Assembly (NCBI GenBank): GCA_021414045.1
Contig: JAIOPF010000244.1
Coordinates: 1-12,723 of the forward strand
DNA length: 12,723 nt
Direction of reading: 5' to 3'
DNA from: Deltaproteobacteria bacterium
GTDB lineage: Bacteria; UBA10199; DSSB01
In this document: piece after piece, positions 1 through 12,723 of the stretch
How the letters are laid out: the number at the start of each line of letters is the position of its first letter
Position numbering within the stretch: position 1 is the stretch's first letter
Notes under the pieces: model-generated
Databases searched by the model: none
The model's input: only the letters and a program-made list of their open reading frames with translations
Told to the model about the DNA's origin: nothing
Made by a program: the position numbers and the translations under genes

Positions 1-122
1 AGATCATGCTCTCCGAGATCATTCGCCTCCTCCCCCAGGTCCCCAGTCTCGAGCGGGTCGAGGTTGTCCTCCTGGATCCCGAGATTTACCAAATCTTCCA
101 AGAAGAGTACGCTAGACTCTAA
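1..122 (+). CDS. 3' end of a macro-domain-like protein (partial)
   Basis: The reading frame is open at the window edge (first full codon at 3) and ends at TAA 120-122, giving 39 residues. The visible end has a helix, then SLERVEVVLLD, then PEIYQIFQEEYARL. This helix, hydrophobic strand and final helix pattern is what the C-terminus of macro domains looks like (ADP-ribose binding or O-acetyl-ADP-ribose deacetylase family). That is a resemblance judged by eye on a short fragment; the ligand-binding loops lie outside the window. The stop overlaps the start of the next gene as TAATG, which suggests co-transcription and translational coupling. It could instead be the end of another alpha/beta protein with a similar last strand and helix. 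Confidence 0.5.
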   Translation, partial: IMLSEIIRLLPQVPSLERVEVVLLDPEIYQIFQEEYARL

Positions 123-739
123 TGGACCCTCTTTCTACCTTAAGCCTGATGATGGGCAGCTCCTGGGCCAGCGGCCTGAACGCCTATGCGACCATCGGCT
201 TCCTCGGCCTCTTCGGCAAGATCGGCTGGCTGGACCTGCCGGACGGGCTCCATCCCTTGACCCATCCCGCCGTCTTCGGCGTCGCCTTGTTCTTGTATTT
301 GGTGGAATTCGTCGCGGACAAGATTCCGGCCTTCGACACGGTTTGGGACAGCGTCAATACTTTCGTGCGTATTCCGGCGGGAGCCATCCTGGCCTACGGT
401 TCCGTGGGCGCGGTCTCGCCCGAACTCAAACTCGGAGCCACTTTGATCGGCGGCGGCCTGGCCTTTTCCTCCCACGCCACCAAGTCCAGTTTGCGGGCCA
501 TGGCCAATACCAGCCCGGAACCTTTTTCGAACTGGTTCCTTTCCGTCGGCGAAGACCTGATGGTCTTCTTCAGCCTCTGGTTCATGTTCCGGCATCCTTA
601 CGTGATGCTGGCCATCGTCGCGCTCTTCTTGGTTTTCTTCGCTTGGTTTTTGCCCAAGATCTGGCGGGGCTTTCGCTGGATGTGGCGGAAGTTCGTGGCC
701 CTATTTCGCAAGGACCCTACTCCGCTCAACGTTTCGTAG
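122..739 (+). CDS. DUF4126-family integral membrane protein
   Basis: This 205-residue protein matches the DUF4126 pattern along its whole length: ASGLNAY near residue 17, EFVADKIP at 62-69, DTVWD at 72-76, RIPAGA near 83, a SSHATK segment ending at Lys121, and NTSPEP at 129-134 followed by GED at 143-145. Hydrophobic segments lie at about 51-64, 83-98, 104-116 and 147-177, with a basic, Trp/Phe-rich C-terminus. It is therefore a polytopic inner-membrane protein; the biochemical role of the family is not known to me. The ATG at 122 overlaps the upstream TAA, so translation is probably coupled to the preceding gene. The TAG stop at 737-739 is followed directly by TGA. Its last 14 bases overlap the end of the opposing gene. 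Confidence 0.9.
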   Translation: MDPLSTLSLMMGSSWASGLNAYATIGFLGLFGKIGWLDLPDGLHPLTHPAVFGVALFLYLVEFVADKIPAFDTVWDSVNTFVRIPAGAILAYGSVGAVSPELKLGATLIGGGLAFSSHATKSSLRAMANTSPEPFSNWFLSVGEDLMVFFSLWFMFRHPYVMLAIVALFLVFFAWFLPKIWRGFRWMWRKFVALFRKDPTPLNVS

Positions 740-2744
740 TGAGCTTAGAAATAGCGGCTTTCAGAATATAGACTAGGCCATATTGGGCGGCGTAACGTCC
801 GTTAACATCGTATTTTTGCACCGGTTGAATCCGTTCCGCCATTTGCCCGTCGCGAAGTTTTTTGACGGCCTTGGCTTCCGCCTCCACCGCGGCGATTCTT
901 TCTTTCAACCCCGGAATTCCCATCAGTCTCAAGTCGAGCAAATCTTTGCGTGCGGATTCGTCGAACTCGGCCAGCACCCCCAAGGCTCGCAGGGCCTCGT
1001 TATCGTTTCGTCCCGCCAGCCCCTTCAAATGGACGATGTTCGGGTGCAATTTTTCGATTTCTTTTTTTCCCATCTCCCGTTGGTACATGGAAGACGCGCT
1101 CAAGAGTCCCGCATAGGCCTTGGCCAGGGAACCCGAATTCTGGTCGCGAATGGCCGCATTTTCCGCACGACTCAAGCGGGCTTGAAATTCCTCCGAGGTT
1201 AAAAGGCGAAGACCCAGAAACACTTCCGGTGACTCGGTCCCCAGGCGGCCCATGGAGCGGGCATAGATCGGTAAAAGCTGCTGCAAAGTCTGGGACTCCG
1301 CCTCATGGAAATAAGAGTTCCACCAAGCTCTCCAGCCACCTGTGGCGAAGGTCGGTCTGAATCTCGTGGGAATTCCCGGTTTCTCGAGGACCTCGCGCAA
1401 GGCCCTGGTCCCAGCTTCGACTTCGGGATGCCCGAGAGGATATTCCTTCAGGGCATCCGCATGGAATTCGGCGGCGCGCTTCCTTAAGAGCAAATGGTGC
1501 GCATAAAAAGGCACGGTTGCCACCGGATCCTCGACGGGATGGGACCATTCAATCTTGGGATCCTGAATCAAGCGGCGCAGCGCTTTCATGCCGAGGCCGA
1601 ATTCCTTCTCGCCTTCCTGCGTTTTGAGAATGGCGCCGAAGGTTTCCAAGTGTTCTAGTCTCTCGTCAGGCGGCAAGTCGGAGTCGAGCATGGCTTCGCG
1701 CAAATTTTTCGCCGCCTCATTTCTCGCCTCAACCGTCGCGAAACGCGAATCCCCGCGATAACCGACGACCAGGTCGCCTTTCCCTAGCAGAGGCTTGCCA
1801 TCCTTAACGGAAGCCATCATTAAAATGCCGGACGGAATTTCCGTCTGCCTAATCGAAATTTGCGGCAAGCCCGCGAAGAGCGGAGCTTCCCCGAAACTCG
1901 AGAACAGCTCGGCAGGAGGATGGTGACTTCCCCGGCTTGCCAATTCATTTTGAAATTGGGCAAAGCGCCGCCCCAATAGACGGCTTCCGAGATGAGCCCC
2001 GACGCCCAAACTCAACCAAGTCGCCAAGGTATCGGCCAGCAGCGCCCCCGACGTCGAAATCGGACGCCATCCCAAAACCTGTTCAATACGGTTCACGGCG
2101 AGCAAACCCAACAAAGAAAAGGCCTGGGGAATAGTCGCATGGCTGAAACGGGATAATCCTTGGAAGTTTTGAATGCTTTGTTGGGCACCGAAGGCAAAGA
2201 ATTTGAGAGCCCCCAAGGTCAAGACGGACTGACGAAGGTCCTGAGAAAACGCCCGATCCGTCGGATTCATCTCGCGTTGCAGCAAAGTGAAAGTCGGAGC
2301 GGCAAAACCACCCAGGTTGGCGAGAACGCGGGCTCCTATTCCTCGAGTGAATAGGCCGGCTTTCGAAACCGAGGCCAATCGCCCCAATGCCGCGGTTCGC
2401 CCGATTTGAAAAACCGTGGAACCCACCAACATGGGAAGGATCATTCGAGGATCCGAACTTTGTTGGATAAAACGTCTTGAGGATAATTCGAATTGTGCCC
2501 CGAAACTACCCCGGCCCTTCAAGGCCTCCAGGCGTTGCTCCGCACGATTCACCAGAGCCTGGGGGGGCTTGTCCGCCTTCAAACCGTCATAAATCTCGGC
2601 CGCGGCTTCCAAGTCATCAGCGGCTTCCAGTTCACCGGCTAGGCGAAGCAGAGCCTCGCCCCGCAGTTGAGGGTCGGTTTCACGGGAGATAGCTTCATAT
2701 TGACCAAGAAAAATCGATTTTAAGCGCAGAGATTCAAGGCTCAT
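726..2744 (-). CDS. Paralog 4 of the array: shared N-terminal module plus helical C-terminal domain
   Basis: This predicted protein has 672 residues from the ATG at 2744. Residues about 15-75 are TPR-like helices (TDPQL, then a DLEAAAEIY helix). Residues about 77-260 are the shared module: GRGSFG at 77-82, TRGIGAR at 133-139, GGFAAPTFTL at about 145-154, and several weakly hydrophobic Ala/Gly/Leu stretches that could be membrane-associated. This is the most divergent of the four copies and lacks the LGRPQDWSG segment of the others. A linker carries GILMMASVKDG (306-316). The region from about 340 is helical and is shared with the gene at 8014-10044 (LREAMLDSDLPPDERL, KPGIPTRFRPTF, SYFHEAE). 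About 40 extra charged residues follow at the C-terminus. It is the last gene of the minus-strand block. No catalytic motif is visible and the function is unknown. Confidence 0.8.
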   Translation of the reverse strand: MSLESLRLKSIFLGQYEAISRETDPQLRGEALLRLAGELEAADDLEAAAEIYDGLKADKPPQALVNRAEQRLEALKGRGSFGAQFELSSRRFIQQSSDPRMILPMLVGSTVFQIGRTAALGRLASVSKAGLFTRGIGARVLANLGGFAAPTFTLLQREMNPTDRAFSQDLRQSVLTLGALKFFAFGAQQSIQNFQGLSRFSHATIPQAFSLLGLLAVNRIEQVLGWRPISTSGALLADTLATWLSLGVGAHLGSRLLGRRFAQFQNELASRGSHHPPAELFSSFGEAPLFAGLPQISIRQTEIPSGILMMASVKDGKPLLGKGDLVVGYRGDSRFATVEARNEAAKNLREAMLDSDLPPDERLEHLETFGAILKTQEGEKEFGLGMKALRRLIQDPKIEWSHPVEDPVATVPFYAHHLLLRKRAAEFHADALKEYPLGHPEVEAGTRALREVLEKPGIPTRFRPTFATGGWRAWWNSYFHEAESQTLQQLLPIYARSMGRLGTESPEVFLGLRLLTSEEFQARLSRAENAAIRDQNSGSLAKAYAGLLSASSMYQREMGKKEIEKLHPNIVHLKGLAGRNDNEALRALGVLAEFDESARKDLLDLRLMGIPGLKERIAAVEAEAKAVKKLRDGQMAERIQPVQKYDVNGRYAAQYGLVYILKAAISKLTTKR

Positions 2745-2748
2745 GGTG

Positions 2749-2755
2749 CCCCTCC
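2749..2755 (-). promoter_or_regulatory. Shine-Dalgarno sequence deciding the start at 2744
   Basis: On the minus strand GGAGGGG lies five bases before the ATG at 2744, a strong ribosome binding site with good spacing. It favours this ATG over an in-frame TTG at 2774 that would add ten residues unrelated to the other paralogs. Confidence 0.75.
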
Positions 2756-2817
2756 ATGATATCCTCCGCCTCAAAAGGATAGCGGGGGCTTATCGAGCCC
2801 CTCCTGGATAAGTTGTC

Positions 2818-5427
2818 TTAGGGCCTGGAACCCCGCGAAAGCGTATCGATTTGGCTTAAGGTCGGAAGATCTTCGAGGCGCCTCGTCCGGCGAATCTCCG
2901 GGGACAAGGTCCTCGTTGCCGCGAACACTTGGCTATACAGATCTCGGATCGATCGAATACGCACGCCTCCGTTCGCCTTCAACATTTGGTCGCTAAATAC
3001 AGCGAGTAAAGTGTCGTTCAAGGGCAAGGCCGCTTCTCCCGGGAGACCGAGAGAAAAATCCTCCAAGGGAAGGAGAAGATTGCTTCCCGAGGTCGAAAGC
3101 GGCCGATTCATGGCTTCCACCGCCTCGGCGTAGGACCGGAGTTTCTCGCGTCCCATACGCTCGGAAAAACGTCGCGGGGTCCCGAGGTCGAGGCAGGCGT
3201 AGGCTCGCTCCAATAGGCGATGGATCTCGATGAAATCCCTTTGCGCACTCTCCGCAAGGGTGCGCCCAGTAGATTTGTTTTCCTTCAGCCAATGCATGGC
3301 AAGACGCGACAAGACTTCTCCGCGCCTCGCGGCGCCGTCGCTGCGGCCCGCCGCATCTTCAAACCGTCCGGGAAGGGCGAGTCGTCCGAATAATCCCTGT
3401 AGCTGACTTTCGACGGCCGTCTCGTAATTGCGAAATCCCTCGAAAGCATAGCTCGGCAATTGACTGGCTCGAAATACCTGAAAGTGTCCCATGCGGGACT
3501 GAACCGGCGCCAGCCAGAATGCTTCGGCCGGCACTTGGAACCCTTTCCACTCGGCGCGAATCAAGTCCCCCTGCCATTGAAAAGCGAGACTACCGCCACC
3601 CTTTTCCATCCATAGAATCGTCAATTTATTCCCTACGGGAAGAGGGTGCTCACCTAAGATATCCGCTAGTTCTTGCAAGCCCTTTTCCTCGACTCGTCCT
3701 CGAGTCATACGGATGGCCGGACCTCTCAGGCCCATTCCCTCCATGGTCCCTAGAAAACGGCCAAAGGCCACTTTCACCGCGGAGAAATCTTCGGCATTCG
3801 CCATATCGAATCGGTCCGATCCGGCGGCCGGCAAGGGCGGCGTCCTCGGAGGACTTGGGCGCGGAGGCACCGTCGGGGGCCTAGCCAAAATCCCGGATTT
3901 TGAAACGGCGCTCGGAGGCGTCGAGACGGCGGGGGCCTCAGGCAGGCTCGATCGGCGTTCCGCCGCCTCCAACGAGGCGACTTGCACGGAGAAGCCCATC
4001 TTCTGCCGAATAAAATGATAAGCCCGGCCATCGTAGGGCGACAAGACTGTGACGGCCGTGTCGTTCGGAACCGAATGTTCGCGAAACAAGCGATGCAATT
4101 CCAATTTCAGGACGCCTTGCAGACTCGAATCGAACTCCTTGAATCCCGCGTAAGTAACCACCACGGGGTCGCGATAATGCGTGAAATAGAGGTCCAAACC
4201 GTCGATAACGCGCGAAAGATAGTCCTGCCCGGGGCGAGGGAGGGATTCGATGGAAAAATATCGCGCATGGGGGGAAAGGTCGGAGACACCAAAATTCGGC
4301 ACTTCGGAATAATAGGGCGCCAAGGGAGCGGGGGGTTTGGAATCTCTCCCTAATCCCAATAGCGTGGGCCGGGAACGCCGGCTGCCCGAACCAGTTCCCT
4401 CTTTTCCATTGCCCTCTCCGTCTTGGGTCATCATTAAAATTTCCGGTTTAACCGGCTCGGATACGCCAGGCCGGGAAACTTCTCGGCCACCGGCCAATGC
4501 CAGGGCCGGCCTCAAAGTCGTGGGGAAATTTCCTGGAGAATTGTGTGGAAGGGGTGCCCTAAGTCTTTCGCTTCGGAGTTCGAGACTGTGCTCCCAAGCT
4601 TGAACCCGCGGTCCCAATGCCTGCGAGCTCAAACGCCCCGCCACGTGAAATTGCAGCAGCATGGCCAAAGAATCCGTCAGCAGAGTCTCTCCCGCCTGGG
4701 GTGTCCGCAGACCAGCCCTGCTTTCGAGGGCATGGCCCAACAAGATACCGGTGAACATGCCACCTTGCTGAGTCAGCGTCCTCAAGGACCCTTCGTGAAC
4801 TCCCCCGGCGCCAAAACGTTGGTAGGCAGCGCCGCTGGCCCAACCCGCGAACTTCATGGCTCCCAAAACCAAATAGCTGGAAGCCAAATCCCGGCTCAGC
4901 GCCGAACCGCTCCAATCCTGAGGGCGACCCAAGGCCTGGCTACCCAACCTGCCGACGAGGGTGAAAGTCGGCGCTTCCAGCGCGAAGCCGGCAAGCGAGG
5001 CCAGGGCGCGGGCGCCGAAACCCCGCGTCAAAAAATTCGCCGTCGGGGCCGCCGCCAAGCGGGACAAGGCCGCCAAACGCGTCAAACGAAATACGGGCCC
5101 GGCCACACCCATCGCCAGCAGGGCGCTGGGTTCCGAAGCTTGTCCCGCGAATTGTCGAAGAAGAAATTCCGCCCGAGGTCCCACCGAACCTCGTCCTAGA
5201 ATCGCATCGAGCCGCGTGCGGGCGCGATTTCGGACGGTGGAATCCGCCTCGTTTTCCGCCGCCAAGGAATAAACTTCCGCCGCTAAATCCAAACGGCCGA
5301 GTTGTTCCTCGCGCTGGGCAAAACCCAAGAGGCCCTCGGCCAAAAGCTGGGGGTCCCGTTCCCGAGTCAAGACCTCCCACTCGTGGCGAAGCACCCCGTT
5401 GAGAGGAGTGCGTAATGAGATTTCCAT
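2818..5427 (-). CDS. Paralog 3 of the array: shared N-terminal module, Pro-rich linker, unrecognised C-terminal domains
   Basis: This is an intact protein of 869 residues. Residues 24-76 are TPR-like (RDPQLLAEGLL, RLDLAAEVY). Residues 78-272 are the shared module: GRGSVG at 78-83, RAEFLLRQF at 85-93, TRGFGAR at 134-140, EAPTFTL at 151-157, LGRPQDWSG at 166-174, SSYLVLG at 183-189, and DSLAMLLQFHVAGRL at 252-266. Next comes the linker motif EILMMTQDG (329-337). Residues about 380-485 form a compact region with PVVVTYAGFKEFDSSLQGVL, which faintly recalls a STAS domain (a strand followed by DSS). A low-complexity Pro-rich linker spans about 515-535, followed by an unrecognised domain (about 545-685) and a helical C-terminus. 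The start has a weak GGCGGA upstream and lies 21 bases after the preceding gene. Its role is unknown; the STAS idea is weak. Confidence 0.85.
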   Translation of the reverse strand: MEISLRTPLNGVLRHEWEVLTRERDPQLLAEGLLGFAQREEQLGRLDLAAEVYSLAAENEADSTVRNRARTRLDAILGRGSVGPRAEFLLRQFAGQASEPSALLAMGVAGPVFRLTRLAALSRLAAAPTANFLTRGFGARALASLAGFALEAPTFTLVGRLGSQALGRPQDWSGSALSRDLASSYLVLGAMKFAGWASGAAYQRFGAGGVHEGSLRTLTQQGGMFTGILLGHALESRAGLRTPQAGETLLTDSLAMLLQFHVAGRLSSQALGPRVQAWEHSLELRSERLRAPLPHNSPGNFPTTLRPALALAGGREVSRPGVSEPVKPEILMMTQDGEGNGKEGTGSGSRRSRPTLLGLGRDSKPPAPLAPYYSEVPNFGVSDLSPHARYFSIESLPRPGQDYLSRVIDGLDLYFTHYRDPVVVTYAGFKEFDSSLQGVLKLELHRLFREHSVPNDTAVTVLSPYDGRAYHFIRQKMGFSVQVASLEAAERRSSLPEAPAVSTPPSAVSKSGILARPPTVPPRPSPPRTPPLPAAGSDRFDMANAEDFSAVKVAFGRFLGTMEGMGLRGPAIRMTRGRVEEKGLQELADILGEHPLPVGNKLTILWMEKGGGSLAFQWQGDLIRAEWKGFQVPAEAFWLAPVQSRMGHFQVFRASQLPSYAFEGFRNYETAVESQLQGLFGRLALPGRFEDAAGRSDGAARRGEVLSRLAMHWLKENKSTGRTLAESAQRDFIEIHRLLERAYACLDLGTPRRFSERMGREKLRSYAEAVEAMNRPLSTSGSNLLLPLEDFSLGLPGEAALPLNDTLLAVFSDQMLKANGGVRIRSIRDLYSQVFAATRTLSPEIRRTRRLEDLPTLSQIDTLSRGSRP

Positions 5428-5448
5428 AGTTGTCCGCCTAATTCTTCT

Positions 5449-5862
5449 TCACCGGCGCCGACGGTAGATCTGAAGGTGCAAATTCAAGCCTTGGGAGGTC
5501 GGCAACACATAGTTCACGGCCCCCGCCAAATTGGGGAGCCCCTCGTCAAAAACCTTTTCCCAGAATTCCGGATTCAGGTCTAGGTGGCGAAACGAATTTT
5601 GGGCCCCAAAATGATGGTCGGTTTGCAGGACCAAAAAGCCTCCGGGAGAAACGTCCCTGCCAAAATAATCCCCGTCTTTCCCGCCTGTGGAACGTACCAG
5701 ATAAAACGAGGAGGGGTTGGTCCAATAGGCGATGTCGGCCGGACTCTCCGCATCCAAGTCTTCGGGCTTGGCATAGCGAATGCGATTTTGCATCTCCACC
5801 GGAAAATACTTTCGCAATAAGCGAAGATGAGTGGATATTTCCGAACCTGGGTCCTTCACCAT
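5449..5862 (-). CDS. Methyltransferase-like C-terminal part, in a shifted frame of the HATPase paralog
   Basis: From the ATG at 5862 this frame gives 137 residues, but it is open back to a TAG at 5908-5910, and the coding-like sequence begins before the ATG (RWKLASLGSSV). Read with those residues it looks like the later part of a class I SAM-dependent methyltransferase: LASLGSSVMVKD (strand 2 with an acidic end), RIRYAKPEDLD, ADIAYWTNP (strand 4 region), and SPGGFLVLQTDHH (the GG turn before strand 5). The glycine-rich motif I is not in this frame; a matching DVFGLGP lies just upstream in the HATPase frame. I therefore read this as the true C-terminus of the upstream gene after a one-base shift, not as a separate gene. 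The frame ends with YRRRR and TGA, 21 bases before paralog 3. The substrate cannot be inferred. Confidence 0.6.
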   Translation of the reverse strand: MVKDPGSEISTHLRLLRKYFPVEMQNRIRYAKPEDLDAESPADIAYWTNPSSFYLVRSTGGKDGDYFGRDVSPGGFLVLQTDHHFGAQNSFRHLDLNPEFWEKVFDEGLPNLAGAVNYVLPTSQGLNLHLQIYRRRR

Positions 5863-7981
5863 GACCGAACTTCCCAGGCTGGCCAGCTTCCATCGAGTTC
5901 TCGGGCCCTAGGCCGAAAACATCCGTTTCGGAGACCGTCTTCGGCTCCACCTCATCCCGGAGAAAGGCCCGAGCCGGTATCTCGAAACGAAACTCCGTTC
6001 GGGAATTCGGCGCGCTGCGGACCCAAAGCGGTCCCCATCCCAGGGACCGCAAATTCTCGATCACGGAAGCGAGGCCGAAGCCTTGGGAACCCGTCACTTC
6101 CTTTCGCGCTTCGCGATAACCGTTGCCTCCCAGGTCGAAGAGATGCTCCGGAAGAATTCCGATGCCATCGTCACGCAGCGATATTCGTAAGCCTCCATCC
6201 GGCGTGGAATTCGCGGAAAATTCCGCGGCGGGCTTCTCCGAGGATCGATAACGCCAAGCATTGGTCAAGAGATTGGCCATCACGTCGGCCAAGGCCCGCG
6301 TCGCTCTCCGCCCTTCGGCGAATTCCATTTGATCGTGGAAGGCATTATACCACGCGCTACCGAGGACCTGCGAAACGCCGGGAAAGCTTGGCGAGGCCAG
6401 GGTGATGCCGTCTTTCAGCGCCGAGCCAGCGCTGTTGCCGCGAGGGGTTTGTAATAGGGCAAGGAGGTCCGAATCCAAGGGGCTTCCCTCGAGAAGCCCG
6501 CTCAGGCAATAGTCAACGCCGGCCAGGAATTCGCTTCGGTAATAGAGGTCGTGCAATACCCGGCGATTGGCCTCTTGCCGCCCGCGATTCGCGGGGTCCG
6601 CATCGCGGCTCAGGTCCACCGCGCTGCGCAGCGTGCCTTGGGCCAGGTTATAGATGGAAAGGCGGGCTTTTAATTGGGACTGCAAGGTCTCCAAAGCCGC
6701 GTTTTCTTGGGTTTCCAAGGCTTGTCCCGACGATAATTTGTCGCTCCATCTCGAAATTAGCGGAAACTGCTGGCCGAAATCCCGCCGCGTTCTTTCTTGG
6801 AAATCATAACCCCACTCCATCACCCGTTCGGTGAAGTCATGGGGAAGAGTCACCCGAGTCCGGAATTCGGCCTCGGGAGTGGCCAAGTGCTGGGATAGCA
6901 GGTTGATGATTTCGTTGACGGAGGCGCCCTCGAAATCGAATCGAGTCCAACCATTCTCTTCAAACCTCCGCGACTCGTTGCCCGAGGAAACTCCCTGGCT
7001 TAGGACTTTCAACTGACTCGCATCCCAATTGAAGGACTCTCTTGGTTTTAAAGGACCATTCGCGACTGATAAAAGGAGCTGGTCCCCGAAGGCGGGTGGA
7101 AAGGAGCCCCGGGAAGAACGGGGGCCGTCGCCACGAACCGCGTCCTGCAAGAGCTTTTCCCGCAAGATAAATTCTCTACCCAAGACGTTGGGCAAAATCC
7201 TTCCGCTGACATGAAATTGCAAGAGCATGGCAAGACTATCGATCAAGGTCGTCGCGCCGGGTTGTCCGCGACGCAGGCCCGTCCATTCCTCGAGGCGATG
7301 TCCGAGGAGAATGCCTGACAGCATGCCCCCTTGATGGAAAAGTCCCCCCAAGCCCGCGCTGGCGCCCAAGCGTTGCTGGAGAGATTGGCTCGCCCATCCC
7401 GTCAGCTTAAGTCCACCCAACACCAAATAACTGGAGGCCAACTCCCTACCCAGGGCCAGTCCCGTCCAATCCTGCGATCGGCCCAAAGCCTCGTTTCCCA
7501 ATTTTCCCGCCAAGGTAAAAGTGGGGGCTTCCACCGCGAAACCGGTCATAGACGCCATCGCCCTTGCCCCGAAACCTCGGGTTAAAAAGTTCGCCGTTGG
7601 AGATGCCGCCAACCGAGAAAGCGTCACGGCTCTCGCCATTTGAAAGGCCGCTCCGGCCAAGCCCATCGCGAGCAGGGTGCTGGGCTCGGAGGCTTGGTCC
7701 GCGAATCGGCGGAGCAGGAATTCCGCACGGGCCCCCGCCTCTCCCCGTCCTTGAAAGGCGTCCAGACGCCGACGCGCGGCTTCCCTCAAGGCCAAGGATG
7801 TGGGCGCATCCGATAGGATTTTTTGATAAGCGGAAGCCGCCGAGTCCAGGTGGCCGTCGTTTTCCAGACGAGACGCGAAAGCGAAGACCCCTTCCCAATA
7901 AAGTTGAGGATCCGGTTCGCGCGCGAGCGAATACCATTCGCGGGCGGCCGCGACGGACCACCCGCTATTTGAAGACTGCAT
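5546..7981 (-). CDS. Paralog 2 of the array: shared N-terminal module plus GHKL/HATPase domain, frameshifted near its end
   Basis: The open frame has 811 codons. Residues 22-75 are TPR-like and 78-268 are the shared module (TRGFGAR 134-140, EAPTFTL 151-157, SSYLVLG 183-189). Residues about 350-550 are mostly helical. Residues about 555-670 form a GHKL ATP-binding domain like that of histidine kinases: N box ANLLTNAWRY (Asn570, Asn574), G1 box DDGIGI (604-609), and G2 box TGSQGFGL (630-637). A possible H box is RVLHDL with His477, but it is not convincing; no receiver domain is seen. After DVFGLGPENS (about 687-696) this frame stops looking like protein, and the sense continues in the frame of 5449-5907. 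The repaired product would be about 843 residues, HATPase joined to a methyltransferase-like domain. AAGGA five bases before the ATG supports the start. ATP binding is likely; kinase activity is uncertain. Confidence 0.75.
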   Translation of the reverse strand: MQSSNSGWSVAAAREWYSLAREPDPQLYWEGVFAFASRLENDGHLDSAASAYQKILSDAPTSLALREAARRRLDAFQGRGEAGARAEFLLRRFADQASEPSTLLAMGLAGAAFQMARAVTLSRLAASPTANFLTRGFGARAMASMTGFAVEAPTFTLAGKLGNEALGRSQDWTGLALGRELASSYLVLGGLKLTGWASQSLQQRLGASAGLGGLFHQGGMLSGILLGHRLEEWTGLRRGQPGATTLIDSLAMLLQFHVSGRILPNVLGREFILREKLLQDAVRGDGPRSSRGSFPPAFGDQLLLSVANGPLKPRESFNWDASQLKVLSQGVSSGNESRRFEENGWTRFDFEGASVNEIINLLSQHLATPEAEFRTRVTLPHDFTERVMEWGYDFQERTRRDFGQQFPLISRWSDKLSSGQALETQENAALETLQSQLKARLSIYNLAQGTLRSAVDLSRDADPANRGRQEANRRVLHDLYYRSEFLAGVDYCLSGLLEGSPLDSDLLALLQTPRGNSAGSALKDGITLASPSFPGVSQVLGSAWYNAFHDQMEFAEGRRATRALADVMANLLTNAWRYRSSEKPAAEFSANSTPDGGLRISLRDDGIGILPEHLFDLGGNGYREARKEVTGSQGFGLASVIENLRSLGWGPLWVRSAPNSRTEFRFEIPARAFLRDEVEPKTVSETDVFGLGPENSMEAGQPGKFGHGEGPRFGNIHSSSLIAKVFSGGDAKSHSLCQARRLGCGESGRHRLLDQPLLVLSGTFHRRERRGLFWQGRFSRRLFGPANRPSFWGPKFVSPPRPESGILGKGF

Positions 7982-8013
7982 GTTTTTCCTTACCCGTTAA
8001 ATTCGAAGCCCCT

Positions 8014-8208
8014 TTAGCGTCGCGATCCTTCCTGCGCAAGGAGCTTTCCGGCGATTGGATTTCCTTGCGCGGCCAGTTGGCTCAGGAAAGCGACCGCGCT
8101 AGGATCGCTGCGCATAAACAGGGCGAGGACTTCCACCGCCCGCGGCTCTCCGGCCTTGGCCATTTCTCCCAAGGTCAAAAATATGGGGGCGAGTTGGCGA
8201 TCCGCTCG
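8014..8208 (-). other. In-frame C-terminal continuation of paralog 1 beyond an internal TAG
   Basis: After the TAG at 8209-8211 the same frame stays open for 64 codons to TAA 8014-8016. The translation (RQLAPIFLTLGEMAKAG, then EPRAVEVLALFMRSDPSAVAF, ending LLAQEGSRR) has ordinary protein composition. It aligns by eye with the paralog at 726-2744 (HPNIVHLKGLAGRND, EALRALGVLAEFDESAR). With it the protein would be 676 residues, against 672 in that paralog. It is therefore the lost or recoded end of the gene at 8209-10044. An ATG at 8163-8161 could in principle start a short separate peptide, but the homology begins before it. Confidence 0.75.
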
Positions 8209-10044
8209 CTAGACCTCCGGCAGGGACTGGGGCAAAAGGCGCAACAAAGACGCGTGCGTCCGCATCACCTCCAGCAAAAACTCCGGATCGTGCAGGTAGT
8301 CGGCAATGGGGCCCTCGCCCTCCAGCATCTTCACGATGGGTTTGGCGACCAGCATTCGAAAACCCGACCGCGCTTGGTCGCAACCCAGGGGCAAGGCATC
8401 CAACAAGGGTAAATATCGGCCCAGGTAAGCCTTGCGCAGGTTCCTCTCGGCCTCGAAGTAAGACCGCGACCAAACGTCTCGGCGAAAATAGGTGCGAAAT
8501 TTCGTCGAAAGTCCCGGTTCCAGCACGGCGCCTTCCATCATCGTGACCGCCTGCTTCAGCTCTCGTGGCTCGGCCGGAGGCTGGCGATGCAAATGGACGT
8601 AGATTTCCGCGGCGGTAAGTCTCAGCTGAAAATCCTGATTATAGAAATCCCGCACCGGCTGAGGGAGGGAAATTTCTCTCTCGAGAAGGATGTCCGGCCA
8701 ATTCTCGACCTCGGGATAAGGGAGGCGCGGATCTTGAAGCATTCTCTCCAAGGTTCGGAGGCTTTTAGCATGCTCGGGATCCCGGGTCAGTTCGCTCAAG
8801 TATTCGGGCAATTGCCGCAGCTGCGAGAGCCTTCGTTCGGGAGCCACGCCGGGATCGAGAATGCCCTCGCGCAGGTCCCTAACTTTGTTTCGAGCCTCGG
8901 CCAAAGAGGCGTAAGGCCGCGCCTGGCGGCGATAAGGAGCGGCATCCCCTTCGTCTTCGCCGCTTTTCGGAACCTCCCGAGGTTTCCACACCTGAAAAGG
9001 AATTTCTTCCCAGGCTTGCAGGAGCTTTTCCACCCAAGACGAGGCGGGCCGTCGCGGCGGTAGCCCTCCCCCATCTCCCTGCGAAGCCATGAGGAGTATC
9101 GCCGGCCGCTCGATCCGCGGCGATGGGCGTTCCGAGGCGATGCCTGTGGGGCCGGCCAAGGCGCAATCCGGTGAAAAGCCCTGTTTCGGCGCGGTTCCAG
9201 AACTCGCATCCAGGACCGCGTTCCATGCCGGAAGACGCCCACCCTGAAAATTCGTCCCCAGGCGCCCAGCGACGTGGGCCTGCAGCAAGATGGCGAGGCC
9301 ATCGGCCAGGTTCGGCGCGGCGCCTTGCGGAGGACGCAATCCCGTCCACTGCTCGAGGGCGCGGCCGAGCAGGATACCTGATAAAATTCCGCCTTTCTGG
9401 AGAAGAGTCGGCAAGAAGCGTTCGCGAGGGAGACTCGGGACGAAGCGCTGGAACCCTCCGGCCTGCGCCCATCCCGCCAATTTGAGTCCCCCCAATACCA
9501 AATAACTGGGGGCCAAATCCCGGCCCCAAGCGGCTCCACTCCAGTCCTGGGGCCTCCCCAAGGACGCCGCGCCAAGCTTGCCGATGAGGGTGAAGGTCGG
9601 GGCTTCGACGGCAAAACCCACCAAGGACGCGAGGGCACGCGCTCCGAAACCCCGAGTCATCCAACTCGCGGGTTTTTGAAGAAGCCCGCCCAGAGTCGCC
9701 AAACGCGTCAAAGAAAAAATACTTCCAGCCGCTGCCATAGCTAAGATCGTCGCGGGATCAGTGGCGTCTTGCGTTAAGTGCCGCAGCAAAAATTCGGCGC
9801 GTTGGCCGAATTTTCCGCCGCCTTGCAGCGCTTGGATTCGCTGGCGGCCGCGCTCCGACGGGAGGGCTGCATAGACGTGGGCGGCCAAGTCGGGTCGCCC
9901 CAGACCTTCTTGTTCCATCCCAAAGACCAACAGTTGTCGGGTTAAGAGCTCCGGATCCGGTTCCGAAGCGATGGCTTGGAGCTCCGCCCTCGCCGCCGAG
10001 GGCCAGGGTAATCGTTCCAATGGTCGCAGGTCCGCTCGAATCAT
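8209..10044 (-). CDS. Paralog 1 of the array: shared N-terminal module plus helical C-terminal domain, ended early by TAG
   Basis: This frame codes for 611 residues to a TAG, and about 676 if the in-frame continuation to 8014 is counted. Residues 28-72 are TPR-like (SEPDPELL, RPDLAAHVY). Residues 75-268 are the shared module: RAEFLLRHL 82-90, TRGFGAR 130-136, EAPTFTL 147-153, LGRPQDWSG 162-170, SYLVLGG 180-186, LSGILLG 221-227. The linker has PAILLMASQGDG (314-325). Residues about 380-611 are the helical domain shared with the gene at 726-2744: LREGILDPGVAPERRL, EPGLSTKFRTYF, SYFEAE. GAAGGGG three bases before the ATG supports the start, and the gene begins 30 bases after the KS gene, in the same frame. 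No catalytic motif is visible; function unknown. The premature TAG may be a nonsense mutation, a read-through site or a sequence error. Confidence 0.8.
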   Translation of the reverse strand: MIRADLRPLERLPWPSAARAELQAIASEPDPELLTRQLLVFGMEQEGLGRPDLAAHVYAALPSERGRQRIQALQGGGKFGQRAEFLLRHLTQDATDPATILAMAAAGSIFSLTRLATLGGLLQKPASWMTRGFGARALASLVGFAVEAPTFTLIGKLGAASLGRPQDWSGAAWGRDLAPSYLVLGGLKLAGWAQAGGFQRFVPSLPRERFLPTLLQKGGILSGILLGRALEQWTGLRPPQGAAPNLADGLAILLQAHVAGRLGTNFQGGRLPAWNAVLDASSGTAPKQGFSPDCALAGPTGIASERPSPRIERPAILLMASQGDGGGLPPRRPASSWVEKLLQAWEEIPFQVWKPREVPKSGEDEGDAAPYRRQARPYASLAEARNKVRDLREGILDPGVAPERRLSQLRQLPEYLSELTRDPEHAKSLRTLERMLQDPRLPYPEVENWPDILLEREISLPQPVRDFYNQDFQLRLTAAEIYVHLHRQPPAEPRELKQAVTMMEGAVLEPGLSTKFRTYFRRDVWSRSYFEAERNLRKAYLGRYLPLLDALPLGCDQARSGFRMLVAKPIVKMLEGEGPIADYLHDPEFLLEVMRTHASLLRLLPQSLPEV

Positions 10045-10074: not shown

Positions 10075-12723
10075 CTAAGGCCTGAACCTCAGCGCATCCA
10101 GGACATCGCGCTGGCTGAAGTTTCCGCGCCTGAGCGCTTCCTCGAGTTCCGAGGCTCGAGCCCGGTTCTCCTGGGCACGCGCCAGCCATTCGGCCCGCTG
10201 ATGCTCCGGAACTCCGTAGTCCCTCAGCATCTCGAGAGCGCCCGCTTCGTCTTGCGGAAAACGCCCCAAGACCGCGGCCGCGTCCGAGCTCAAGAAGCCT
10301 TCCGAGGTGATCAAGACATTCTCGATGCCGCCGCGCAGGGGATCGGCGCTGAATCTCAACTGCCGCAAGACCTCGGGGATCCTTTCCGCGTAGCGAGGGT
10401 CCAAATCCTCGGTGCGAAAGTTGAACAGGCCCGGGGCTTCGCCGTCGAGCAGGGTTTGGACGCCCATCACCATGTCCACCGCCGAGGCCGCGCCCATGGA
10501 GTGGCCGACCAGGCCCTTGATCGCGCTGACCGCCATGGGATGGTTCAGGCCTTCGTAGCGCAAGGCTTGGTAAATGGATTGAATCTCGGCAATGTTATTG
10601 AGATCCGTCGATGTCCCGTGGGCTTGCAGCAATTGCGGAACGGCGTCGCCGTGGGCGCGGGCTTGTCGCAAGGCCACCATGGTGGCCGTCACGATGCCCT
10701 GGTCCATGGCGGCTAGGTTCGGGGCGCCTCCTTCACCGCTGTTGACATGAATGCCCAATAAGCGACTCGACGGCCATAGCCCCAGCTCGATAGCGCGCTG
10801 GAAATTCACCCAGGGCATTCCAGCCGCCGCCTCCGCGACGACCAAGCCCCGCGCATGGCGGGTGAAGGGAGCCGAGGATTCGCTCATCGCGCGCCGGCGC
10901 ACTTCGATCGGAAGACCCTCCCAAAGCGCTTCGCGCTCGGACTCTTTCATCTGTAATACTTCGGGGCCCAAACGCCCTTGCTCGACCATTTTTTTGACCA
11001 TGCTGTCGACCGTCATGGGAGCTCTACGGCTGAAGCCGGCCACCATGGGCGCGGTATCGAAGGGAGAGAGAGTCGCGTCCGCGCCGAAGACCATCATCGC
11101 GTCCATGGGATATTCGCCGGCGATGCCGTTGCGCAACAAGGATTGACGCGCTCCGAACAAGGCGTAGAGGCCCGAGGCACAGGCGGCGGAGAAGGCCAAA
11201 TTGGTCCCGCCGGTGAGAGGCATTTCCCCGGGAGCCAGGGAAACGGGCAGTATCCTCTCGATGGCCCTCGGGTTACCCTTCAATTCGGCGAAATCGAAAT
11301 GCGGCATCAGAAAATTTAGGAAAAGGCCGCGGGCGTTTTCGAGTAGCCCGGATTGCAACATATAAGTGAGGGAATCCCGACCCTGACGGGCGGCGTCGGT
11401 TATTTCGGTCATGCGATCCATGCCAGGAAAAGCCGAGCCCTGGGCCACGCCCATGCGGCTAGAGGCGAAAAGCTCTCCTATGGGCCGACCAAAGGAATGC
11501 AGGGCCGCGAGGGCCGCATAAAGCCCATAGACTCCGGTGTCGGAAGCGTATTTTAAATTGCGTCCCTGATTCTCGAAGTCGGTCCCCTTGATCCCCTGGG
11601 GATCGAGTCCCATGTGCTTGAGCAATCTTTCGCCCGTGCGCAGAGGTTCCGGGAGCAACCCACCATGCCGCACCGGCAGCCTTTGGGCGCCGCCCTGAAG
11701 GGGAATTTCACGGACGCCGCTTTGGGATAGCAAGGTCTCGCCGAACTCCGACGCGATCTGATTCGGAGTCATGGTTGCTCCGTCCGAAACTCTTCGCCAA
11801 GTTTCCTGACCCGCGCCATCTCGACCGTTATAGCGGGTAAAACCGAAGTCCTCCGAAAGGTACGCCAGGGTCAAAGGCGCGTCGACGCCGTTCATCGCCG
11901 CCGAACGGGTGGCGCGGGAGGTTCCTCGAGTCGTGAGCAGTGACCCCCGTCCCAAACTCACCGCGATTTGTTCCGGACGCACGCGCATCCCACGCAAGAT
12001 CGCGGGAGCCAATCCGGCGGAACCCAAGGTGGTCTCGGGAACCGGAGCGAATGGAGCGGCCGCTACCAAGGGTTCGGATGTCGCCCCGGAAACAGCCGCC
12101 ACCGGTGTGGGTACGGAATGGGCCAGGGGCGATTGATCCGAAACTGGCGGGACTTCGGGCGCCACCGCGGACAAGGCGGCCAGATCATCGGAAGCTCCGC
12201 CACCGAAACTACGTACCGGGGGAGCTTCAGGCGCGCGTTCGCTCAAGCCGAACCAGGAGAGGAATTCCCCTATGGTCCTGCGACCGGTGCGGATGTCCTC
12301 TTCCCATTTCTGGGCCACGTCGCTTCGCTCGGAGAGGCGACTGCGATAAGCGGCGATCTCGGCGTGCGAATAGCCGTAGGTTTCGTGCAGGGCCTGATCG
12401 TCGATGTACCGAAACAAGGCCGATCCGTTATTGCCCGCGAAACCCTGGGATTGCCCGCCGACGAACCGTAGGGGTCCGGGCATGGTTTCCGAACTGACCA
12501 CGACGCGGTTGCCCAAGGCGGTGACGTTGGGGTCGAGTTGGCGCCCTTCCAAATTAAAGACTCCCGGGGCCAGCTGGCGGCGCAGCGACATGAGCAGCAG
12601 GCCGATTTCCATGCTGCCCGCCGCCCCGAGTCCATGCCCCAAAAGCGCCTTATAGGCCGAGAGACGCAGGGGGCCTTCGTATCCGAAGGCGTCCAAGACG
12701 GTGAGTAAATTGCTGGGCTCAAC
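10075..12723 (-). CDS. Beta-ketoacyl synthase protein, 3' part: end of one KS, linker, complete second KS
   Basis: The frame is open at the right edge (882 codons visible) and ends at TAG 10075-10077. The edge to about 12403 is the end of KS1: LSAYKALLGHGLGAAG with its catalytic-type Lys (12649-12651) and His (12634-12636), closing with GFAGNNGSALF. A helical tail follows (about 12241-12402), then an Ala/Pro-rich linker (about 11998-12237). KS2 (about 10297-11900) has SAACASGL with the active Cys (codon 11179-11181), HGTSTDLNNIAE with His (10618-10620) and KGLVGHSMGAAS with His (10501-10503), the Cys-His-His of condensing enzymes. KS2 is odd: 187 residues separate Cys from the first His, about 45 more than in FabF; GEGAG is replaced by AEAAAG; and the final loop is GFLSSDAAAVL. 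A second helical tail ends the protein. No AT, KR, DH or ACP domain is visible. It probably belongs to a polyketide- or PUFA-synthase-like megaenzyme that condenses acyl units. Confidence 0.9.
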   Translation of the reverse strand, partial: VEPSNLLTVLDAFGYEGPLRLSAYKALLGHGLGAAGSMEIGLLLMSLRRQLAPGVFNLEGRQLDPNVTALGNRVVVSSETMPGPLRFVGGQSQGFAGNNGSALFRYIDDQALHETYGYSHAEIAAYRSRLSERSDVAQKWEEDIRTGRRTIGEFLSWFGLSERAPEAPPVRSFGGGASDDLAALSAVAPEVPPVSDQSPLAHSVPTPVAAVSGATSEPLVAAAPFAPVPETTLGSAGLAPAILRGMRVRPEQIAVSLGRGSLLTTRGTSRATRSAAMNGVDAPLTLAYLSEDFGFTRYNGRDGAGQETWRRVSDGATMTPNQIASEFGETLLSQSGVREIPLQGGAQRLPVRHGGLLPEPLRTGERLLKHMGLDPQGIKGTDFENQGRNLKYASDTGVYGLYAALAALHSFGRPIGELFASSRMGVAQGSAFPGMDRMTEITDAARQGRDSLTYMLQSGLLENARGLFLNFLMPHFDFAELKGNPRAIERILPVSLAPGEMPLTGGTNLAFSAACASGLYALFGARQSLLRNGIAGEYPMDAMMVFGADATLSPFDTAPMVAGFSRRAPMTVDSMVKKMVEQGRLGPEVLQMKESEREALWEGLPIEVRRRAMSESSAPFTRHARGLVVAEAAAGMPWVNFQRAIELGLWPSSRLLGIHVNSGEGGAPNLAAMDQGIVTATMVALRQARAHGDAVPQLLQAHGTSTDLNNIAEIQSIYQALRYEGLNHPMAVSAIKGLVGHSMGAASAVDMVMGVQTLLDGEAPGLFNFRTEDLDPRYAERIPEVLRQLRFSADPLRGGIENVLITSEGFLSSDAAAVLGRFPQDEAGALEMLRDYGVPEHQRAEWLARAQENRARASELEEALRRGNFSQRDVLDALRFRP

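Follow-up and report, generated by a model that had tools for sequence, protein, structure and literature searches.

A helical N-terminal module on many different proteins of one deltaproteobacterial lineage: a possible docking cassette

What role does a large N-terminal segment play when the same segment precedes proteins that otherwise differ from one another? The question is raised by the window, meaning the whole stretch of DNA analysed in this study: 12,723 nucleotides of a Deltaproteobacteria bacterium (GenBank assembly GCA_021414045.1, contig JAIOPF010000244.1), which is the entire contig C186 of the genome G000 (2.61 Mb in 385 contigs, 84% complete). The window holds five minus-strand genes, P0005, P0001, P0002, P0003 and P0004, and the last four have in common an N-terminal module some 270 residues long. 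As argued below, we regard the chances as evenly balanced that this module is a cytoplasmic docking or address cassette that co-localises the proteins behind it, here called its cargo. The four genes and their modules are as follows, with lengths in amino acids (aa).

8209..10044, minus strand: P0001, 611 aa, module and helical tail akin to the P0004 tail (by a profile hidden Markov model of the module, module-HMM, and tail comparison)
9211..9996, minus strand: module of P0001
5546..7981, minus strand: P0002, open reading frame (ORF) of 811 aa, module and HATPase_c (residues 562-671, Pfam E 1.3e-14)
7163..7948, minus strand: module of P0002
2818..5427, minus strand: P0003, 869 aa, module, Gly/Pro-rich linker and tail without a known family
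4579..5388, minus strand: module of P0003, the AlphaFold2 target
726..2744, minus strand: P0004, 672 aa, divergent module and helical tail akin to the P0001 tail
1941..2702, minus strand: module of P0004, lacking the EAP-segment glutamate that is otherwise invariant

The initial annotation had described four consecutive genes with one N-terminal module, which was borne out by the module-HMM and by pairwise BLAST. The module-HMM gave i-E-values of 1.1e-83 to 2.9e-110 for P0001–P0004, values that are not independent since the HMM was trained on these four proteins and their paralogues; independent pairwise BLAST gave E 8e-37 for P0003/P0004 and E 2e-67 for P0001/P0002. The ORFs as listed are separated by 228, 119 and 44 bp, and the start of P0004 was taken as the ATG at 2744 (the ORF list has a TTG at 2774). 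Past the module the four proteins diverge, apart from the related tails of P0001 and P0004 (26% identity over 195 residues, E 1.4e-10), which fits the helical domain that had been noted twice. The HATPase proposed for P0002 was also found, whereas its supposed methyltransferase-like domain lies in a separate 137-aa ORF with no family match.

The AlphaFold2 model of the P0003 module, based on 65 aligned sequences, is all-helical (predicted local distance difference test, pLDDT, 89.6; predicted template modelling score, pTM, 0.78). In this model a TPR-like part (residues ~8-81) is followed by long helices at 100-126, 132-165, 174-205, 212-237 and 246-271, and this bundle is flanked by amphipathic helices at 82-97 and 273-290; the core modelled alone reached pLDDT 91.7 and pTM 0.83. 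The own-genome alignment (A2) contains the 49 full-length modules among 62 matches, and two further alignments (A3 and A6) contain 61 of the 117 new database proteins listed together with P0001, P0002, P0004 and a window fragment. Several columns are strongly conserved across the 49 modules, and E151 is invariant among them wherever the position is filled (it is missing in P0004).

A peptide rich in methionine recurs behind the module, with the pattern P-x-h-h-M-[MS]-[ST] and an acidic, Gly-rich stretch, usually 25-58 residues past the module (16 in one tail). In the window it was located at four sites.

9064..9105, minus strand: post-module motif of P0001, PAILLMASQGDGGG
7043..7084, minus strand: post-module motif of P0002, weak form, score 8.6
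4405..4446, minus strand: post-module motif of P0003, PEILMMTQDGEGNG
1791..1832, minus strand: post-module motif of P0004, SGILMMASVKDGKP

A matrix built from database proteins found the motif within the first 110 residues of 41 of 54 own-genome tails, against 5/51, 1/51 and 0/39 in later stretches and 5/54 in shuffled tails. In the reverse direction, a matrix from the own-genome tails found it in 109 of 117 database proteins (controls: 14/116, 7/112 and 2/95 in later stretches, 14/117 shuffled); training and test sets have orthologues in common in these comparisons. The motif is also visible by eye in acetyl-CoA carboxylase (ACC), tandem ketosynthase (KS-KS) and fatty acid synthase (FAS) beta proteins of relatives. 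The complete unit is ordered as TPR-like part, helical bundle, Met-rich motif, Gly/Pro-rich linker and cargo. Separately, a small element P-A-[LFY]-A-x-A-G was seen by eye, uncounted, between the module and the Met-rich motif in many tails, including that of P0003.

The module had been suspected to lie outside the named families, and no family in the libraries searched contradicted this. Scans of Pfam, NCBIfam, PADLOC and PHROGs gave no family for it, the matches coming only from the HATPase of P0002 and from sub-threshold noise, and the PDB sequences gave none either (best E 0.27). For P0001–P0004, neither the TPR models of Pfam and NCBIfam nor the mitochondrial carrier model of Pfam gave a match up to E 1, and no fold match was significant for the whole module or for the core searched separately, Foldseek having returned nothing at E 0.001 or better for the core. 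The resemblance to UCP1, which has the mitochondrial carrier fold, is under the caution level for helical bundles. A PEP-CTERM assignment was rejected: residues 98-115 of P0002 scored 15.3 bits, below the cut-off of 20.7, and lie inside the module, not at the C-terminus. No dockerin was matched in the Pfam scan of the window proteins, and the PADLOC defence-gene search gave zero matches for P0001–P0005. The titles and abstract openings returned by a literature search do not describe the module; absence from print cannot be claimed from these parts, and the same holds for a bacterial fungal-type FAS.

Within its own genome the module is abundant. The profile matches 62 ORFs on 46 contigs, one per ORF, and when all candidates were scored at E 1e-6, 87 matches were found in G001 (100% complete) and 94 in G004 (99% complete). 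At the same threshold, 9 of 46 genomes of the phylum, the own genome counted, contain the module: five of the seven genomes of the same family, the sole genome of the same order with 5 weaker matches, and 3 of 38 other genomes with one or two weak matches each. This survey scored no more than 64 or 55 candidates for each genome, and its counts for G000, G001, G002 and G004 are lower bounds. The module is therefore nearly confined to one family-level lineage, in keeping with the narrow, lineage-specific family that had been anticipated. The protein database search scored 7992 candidates and found 176, of which 120 were listed (117 new); the organisms named among the matches listed are metagenome-assembled genomes (MAGs) labelled 'Deltaproteobacteria bacterium' or 'bacterium'. 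A contig search with P0003 alone found no relative, and one with ten close modules gave 13 loci in a single isolate.

At a relaxed E of 0.01, distant relatives of the class gave 10 (G007), 2 (G012), 1 (G015), 1 (G019), 0 (G005) and 0 (G006) matches. As a source of the module these relatives were rejected; a protein search from the best of them found nothing at E 0.001. In G007, G012, G015 and G019 the divergent module-like stretches (L088-L101) lie within large proteins, and in L091 such a stretch is followed by what looks by eye like a J-domain.

What follows the module varies greatly, as the initial annotation had expected for homologues elsewhere: one domain, mostly N-terminal in position, precedes many different Pfam domains within one genome. 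Of the 62 tails, the 54 with at least 100 aa were retained, and the four window tails were scanned as whole proteins and excluded here. Among the remaining 50, 21 matched a Pfam family at E 0.001 (19 exceeded the curated cut-off) and 29 matched none. Protein kinase (4), biotin carboxylase (2), FHA (2) and ResIII helicase (2) occur more than once; sigma-70 with amine oxidase, sigma-70 region 4, HTH, PadR, PAS, PAS with HATPase, phosphofructokinase, methyltransferase with aminotransferase, and FAS beta occur once each. Database homologues, among the matches listed, add GGDEF, the metallo-beta-lactamase fold, HEAT and the Ketoacyl-synt_C domain (KS_C). The module-bearing phosphofructokinase is not unique in the own genome, a piece without the module lying on C58.

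How the module came to stand before so many domains can be read in part from DNA comparisons. The module DNA of L053 (biotin carboxylase) and L068 (FAS beta) is 94.9% identical over 625 bp, and that of L035 and L036 is 84.9% identical over 848 bp. The tails of both pairs are unrelated by BLAST, with identity falling away some 20 residues or less from the edge of the module (in L068 this concerns the 3' edge only, since the contig begins inside the module). Because near-identical modules precede unrelated cargo in these two gene pairs, the module, as judged from its sequence, is a cassette that moves between genes. The orthologous genes for ACC and FAS beta adjoin in G001, 30 bp apart, and their modules are 74% identical over 189 residues, whereas those of the own genome are 98% identical over 189 residues; between these genomes the ACC tails are 80% and the FAS-beta tails 78% identical. 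The simplest reading of these identities is that, in the own genome, one module was recently copied over the other. Between genomes, module-cargo pairings are largely kept. Among 166 modules, 126 had a tail family of at least three members; for 88 of these 126, the nearest-neighbour module stood before a tail of the same family (after shuffling, 4.2 on average and 11 at most).

Two kinds of cargo are of fungal or eukaryotic type.

L068 (G000:C44): fungal-type FAS beta
L122:10457-15154 (G001:C78): fungal-type FAS beta
L123 (G003:C371): fungal-type FAS beta
L112:2244-9536: single-chain eukaryote-type ACC, with module
L122:2759-10426: single-chain eukaryote-type ACC, with module

The FAS-beta tail scores 1178 bits to fungal FAS beta. 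The corresponding search found 231 proteins and listed 120; P0125 and P0126 bear the module, P0127, a partial protein from a 'Deltaproteobacteria' MAG, matches FAS beta with no module match, and the remaining organism-named matches listed are, we take it, all fungal. None of these listed fungal homologues contains the module. In a tree of 6 lineage and 19 fungal sequences, rooted at the midpoint with no outgroup, the lineage sequences form one clade beside the chytrids. FAS beta was likely acquired from a fungus, to judge from these sequences, with the module added afterwards. C-terminal pieces of a fungal-type FAS alpha also occur (L116:1-2367 and L126:1-1083, the N-terminus being outside the sequences seen), scoring as high as 957 bits against fungal FAS alpha. 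FAS beta is present in G000-G003 and was not found in G004-G008 or G012; with a presence in 4 of 10 genomes, FAS beta does not always accompany the module. Two distinct single-chain ACCs occur in G001, on C62 and C78. The carboxyltransferase of the L122 protein scores 266 bits to yeast ACC versus 105 to the best bacterial-named propionyl-CoA carboxylase chain.

In relatives, the cluster that matches the window encodes module-ACC (2431 aa, with biotin carboxylase, ACC_central and carboxyltransferase domains), module-KS-KS and module-MaoC. The remaining coding sequences of the window are the following.

10075..12723, minus strand: P0005, tandem ketosynthase protein, 5' end truncated by the contig edge (Ketoacyl-synt_C E 7.6e-21)
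5449-5862, minus strand: 137-aa ORF in a different frame from P0002, whose end it overlaps, with an upstream in-frame stop at 5908-5910
122-739, plus strand: DUF4126 membrane protein gene, convergent with the array (Pfam E 5.3e-56)

Orthologues of P0005 bear the module (L113:4538-9793, 1752 aa, in G002; L112:10452-15659, 1736 aa, in G004), and for this reason P0005, judged by its sequence relatives, very probably belongs to a fifth module protein, module-KS-KS, as its C-terminal portion. The 5' part of the G001 orthologue also has the module, as does a shorter form of 1247 aa in G003. The expectation that the module would occur near ketosynthase genes holds in so far as these synthase orthologues carry it; it is too narrow, as KS_C lies on two contigs only of the own genome versus modules on 46. 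In G001, KS_C matches are confined to a piece of the module-KS protein and the FAS-alpha piece. G004 has an additional ketosynthase within a 1900-aa ORF, and Ketoacyl-synt_C was found neither in G005 nor in G007 (same order, 98% complete). The 137-aa ORF, which has no Pfam or NCBIfam match up to E 1, may be a separate gene or the sign of a frameshift.

It is difficult to imagine one chemistry common to FAS, ACC, sigma factors and kinases, and location or assembly is the natural candidate for what the cargo has in common; we infer both this common location and what is bound. In the mechanism that we propose, the TPR-like part, the long-helix bundle and the Met-rich hydrophobic peptide would bind one common cytoplasmic partner or surface. 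Binding would bring very different cargo to one place, namely fatty-acid or polyketide-type synthases, acetyl-CoA carboxylase, kinases, sigma factors and helicases. Several observations weigh against a docking cassette of this kind. The motif is weak or absent in several tails, and the fold matches of the TPR-like part score under the tool's caution level for helical proteins. G005 (73% complete) and G006 (82% complete) have no module matches, so that the module is not required by the whole family. With 31 of 50 tails lacking a Pfam family above the cut-off, half of the cargo list is unknown. G004, with its 94 modules, lacks FAS beta, and lipid synthesis is thus not the common theme. No tail family forms a single module clade, which may be due to exchange or to weak resolution. 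Finally, the proposed docking role was derived from sequence and predicted structure.

A more far-reaching version, which we put forward tentatively and consider rather unlikely, is a general cytoplasmic address system in which the helical cassette and the Met-rich peptide, added to protein starts, would direct as many as about 90 proteins, the fungal-type FAS and the eukaryote-type ACC among them, to an undescribed compartment, either linked to a membrane or built of protein.

Among the other explanations, a membrane-embedded helical anchor that tethers the cargo to the cytoplasmic or an internal membrane survives best, doubtful as we find it. The membrane or helical bundle first envisaged for the module was predicted as a helical bundle, and on the membrane the evidence is divided. 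Of the 50 listed fold neighbours of the core, 44 are integral membrane proteins (judged from titles, with no control model run), and the low amphipathicity of the module agrees with an anchor. Its composition, however, speaks against insertion: a stretch of 19 residues reaching a mean hydropathy of 1.6 is absent from 42 of 49 modules, whereas the DUF4126 control has two, and the best 18-residue window contains a median of one charged residue in four of five core helices (zero in helix 212-237). Five long membrane helices would moreover leave the TPR-like part on one side and the cargo on the other, and Foldseek gave no match at E 0.001 or better.

Improbable, in our view, is self-assembly of the module into a filament, shell or condensate, by which the tagged proteins would form a protein body without a separate receptor. 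Many copies of one fold would suit such a body, and the ACC and FAS-beta modules of the own genome look as though kept matched. Bacterial microcompartment (BMC) shell proteins (PF00936; control positive in E. coli and Synechococcus) and the encapsulin shell family PF04454 (control positive in 3/14; other encapsulin families not searched) were found in none of five module-rich genomes, and any compartment would therefore need another basis. The other modules of a genome nevertheless share a mean identity of 35%, which is much divergence for a single lattice.

Two further readings are the least likely. A common N-terminal part before varied domains, kinases included, is the pattern of exported effector sets, yet a secretion or delivery leader with the tails as effectors is very improbable, because FAS beta, acetyl-CoA carboxylase, sigma factors, HTH and PadR have cytoplasmic functions and the printed leaders show no classical signal peptide by eye (no predictor was run and secretion systems were not searched). 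The view that the module has no function and is a segment that spreads freely, copied onto gene starts by recombination, would account for cassette-like exchange and lineage restriction, but it is scarcely credible given the cargo pairings largely kept between genomes, the conserved columns of the 49 modules and the separate motif retained behind the module.

If the docking cassette is real, it would represent an unusually large bacterial cytoplasmic co-localisation system (near-complete genomes of about 3.5 Mb hold 87 and 94 matches), and a cargo list and a compact unit of module and motif would come with it. The module is relevant, too, to the question of how a bacterium operates a fungal-type fatty acid synthase. 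If a new compartment or receptor lies behind the module, this would be more than a variant of a dockerin-like tag; its sequence matched no family in the libraries searched (Pfam, NCBIfam, PHROGs, PADLOC, PDB).

Compared with known systems, the resemblance to TPR and 14-3-3 or SNAP-like repeats covers only about a quarter of the module, and UCP1 has about 290 residues in its chain versus about 200 in the module core. The module is absent from the named fungal homologues of FAS beta among the matches listed, whereas FAS beta of this lineage begins with it; the likeness to eukaryotic ACC lies in the carboxyltransferase, and the lineage ACC likewise begins with the module. PEP-CTERM and type IX secretion sorting domains also occur on many proteins per genome, but they are C-terminal and the module is N-terminal. 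By analogy, the module may work like a shared docking tag such as a dockerin, without a match to any family tested. Dockerins are calcium-binding repeats of about 70 residues on secreted cellulosomal enzymes, and the likeness lies in one docking domain on dozens of proteins per genome with varied partner domains. In contrast to dockerins, the module has about 270 residues, is all-helical and N-terminal, and is carried by proteins with cytoplasmic functions.

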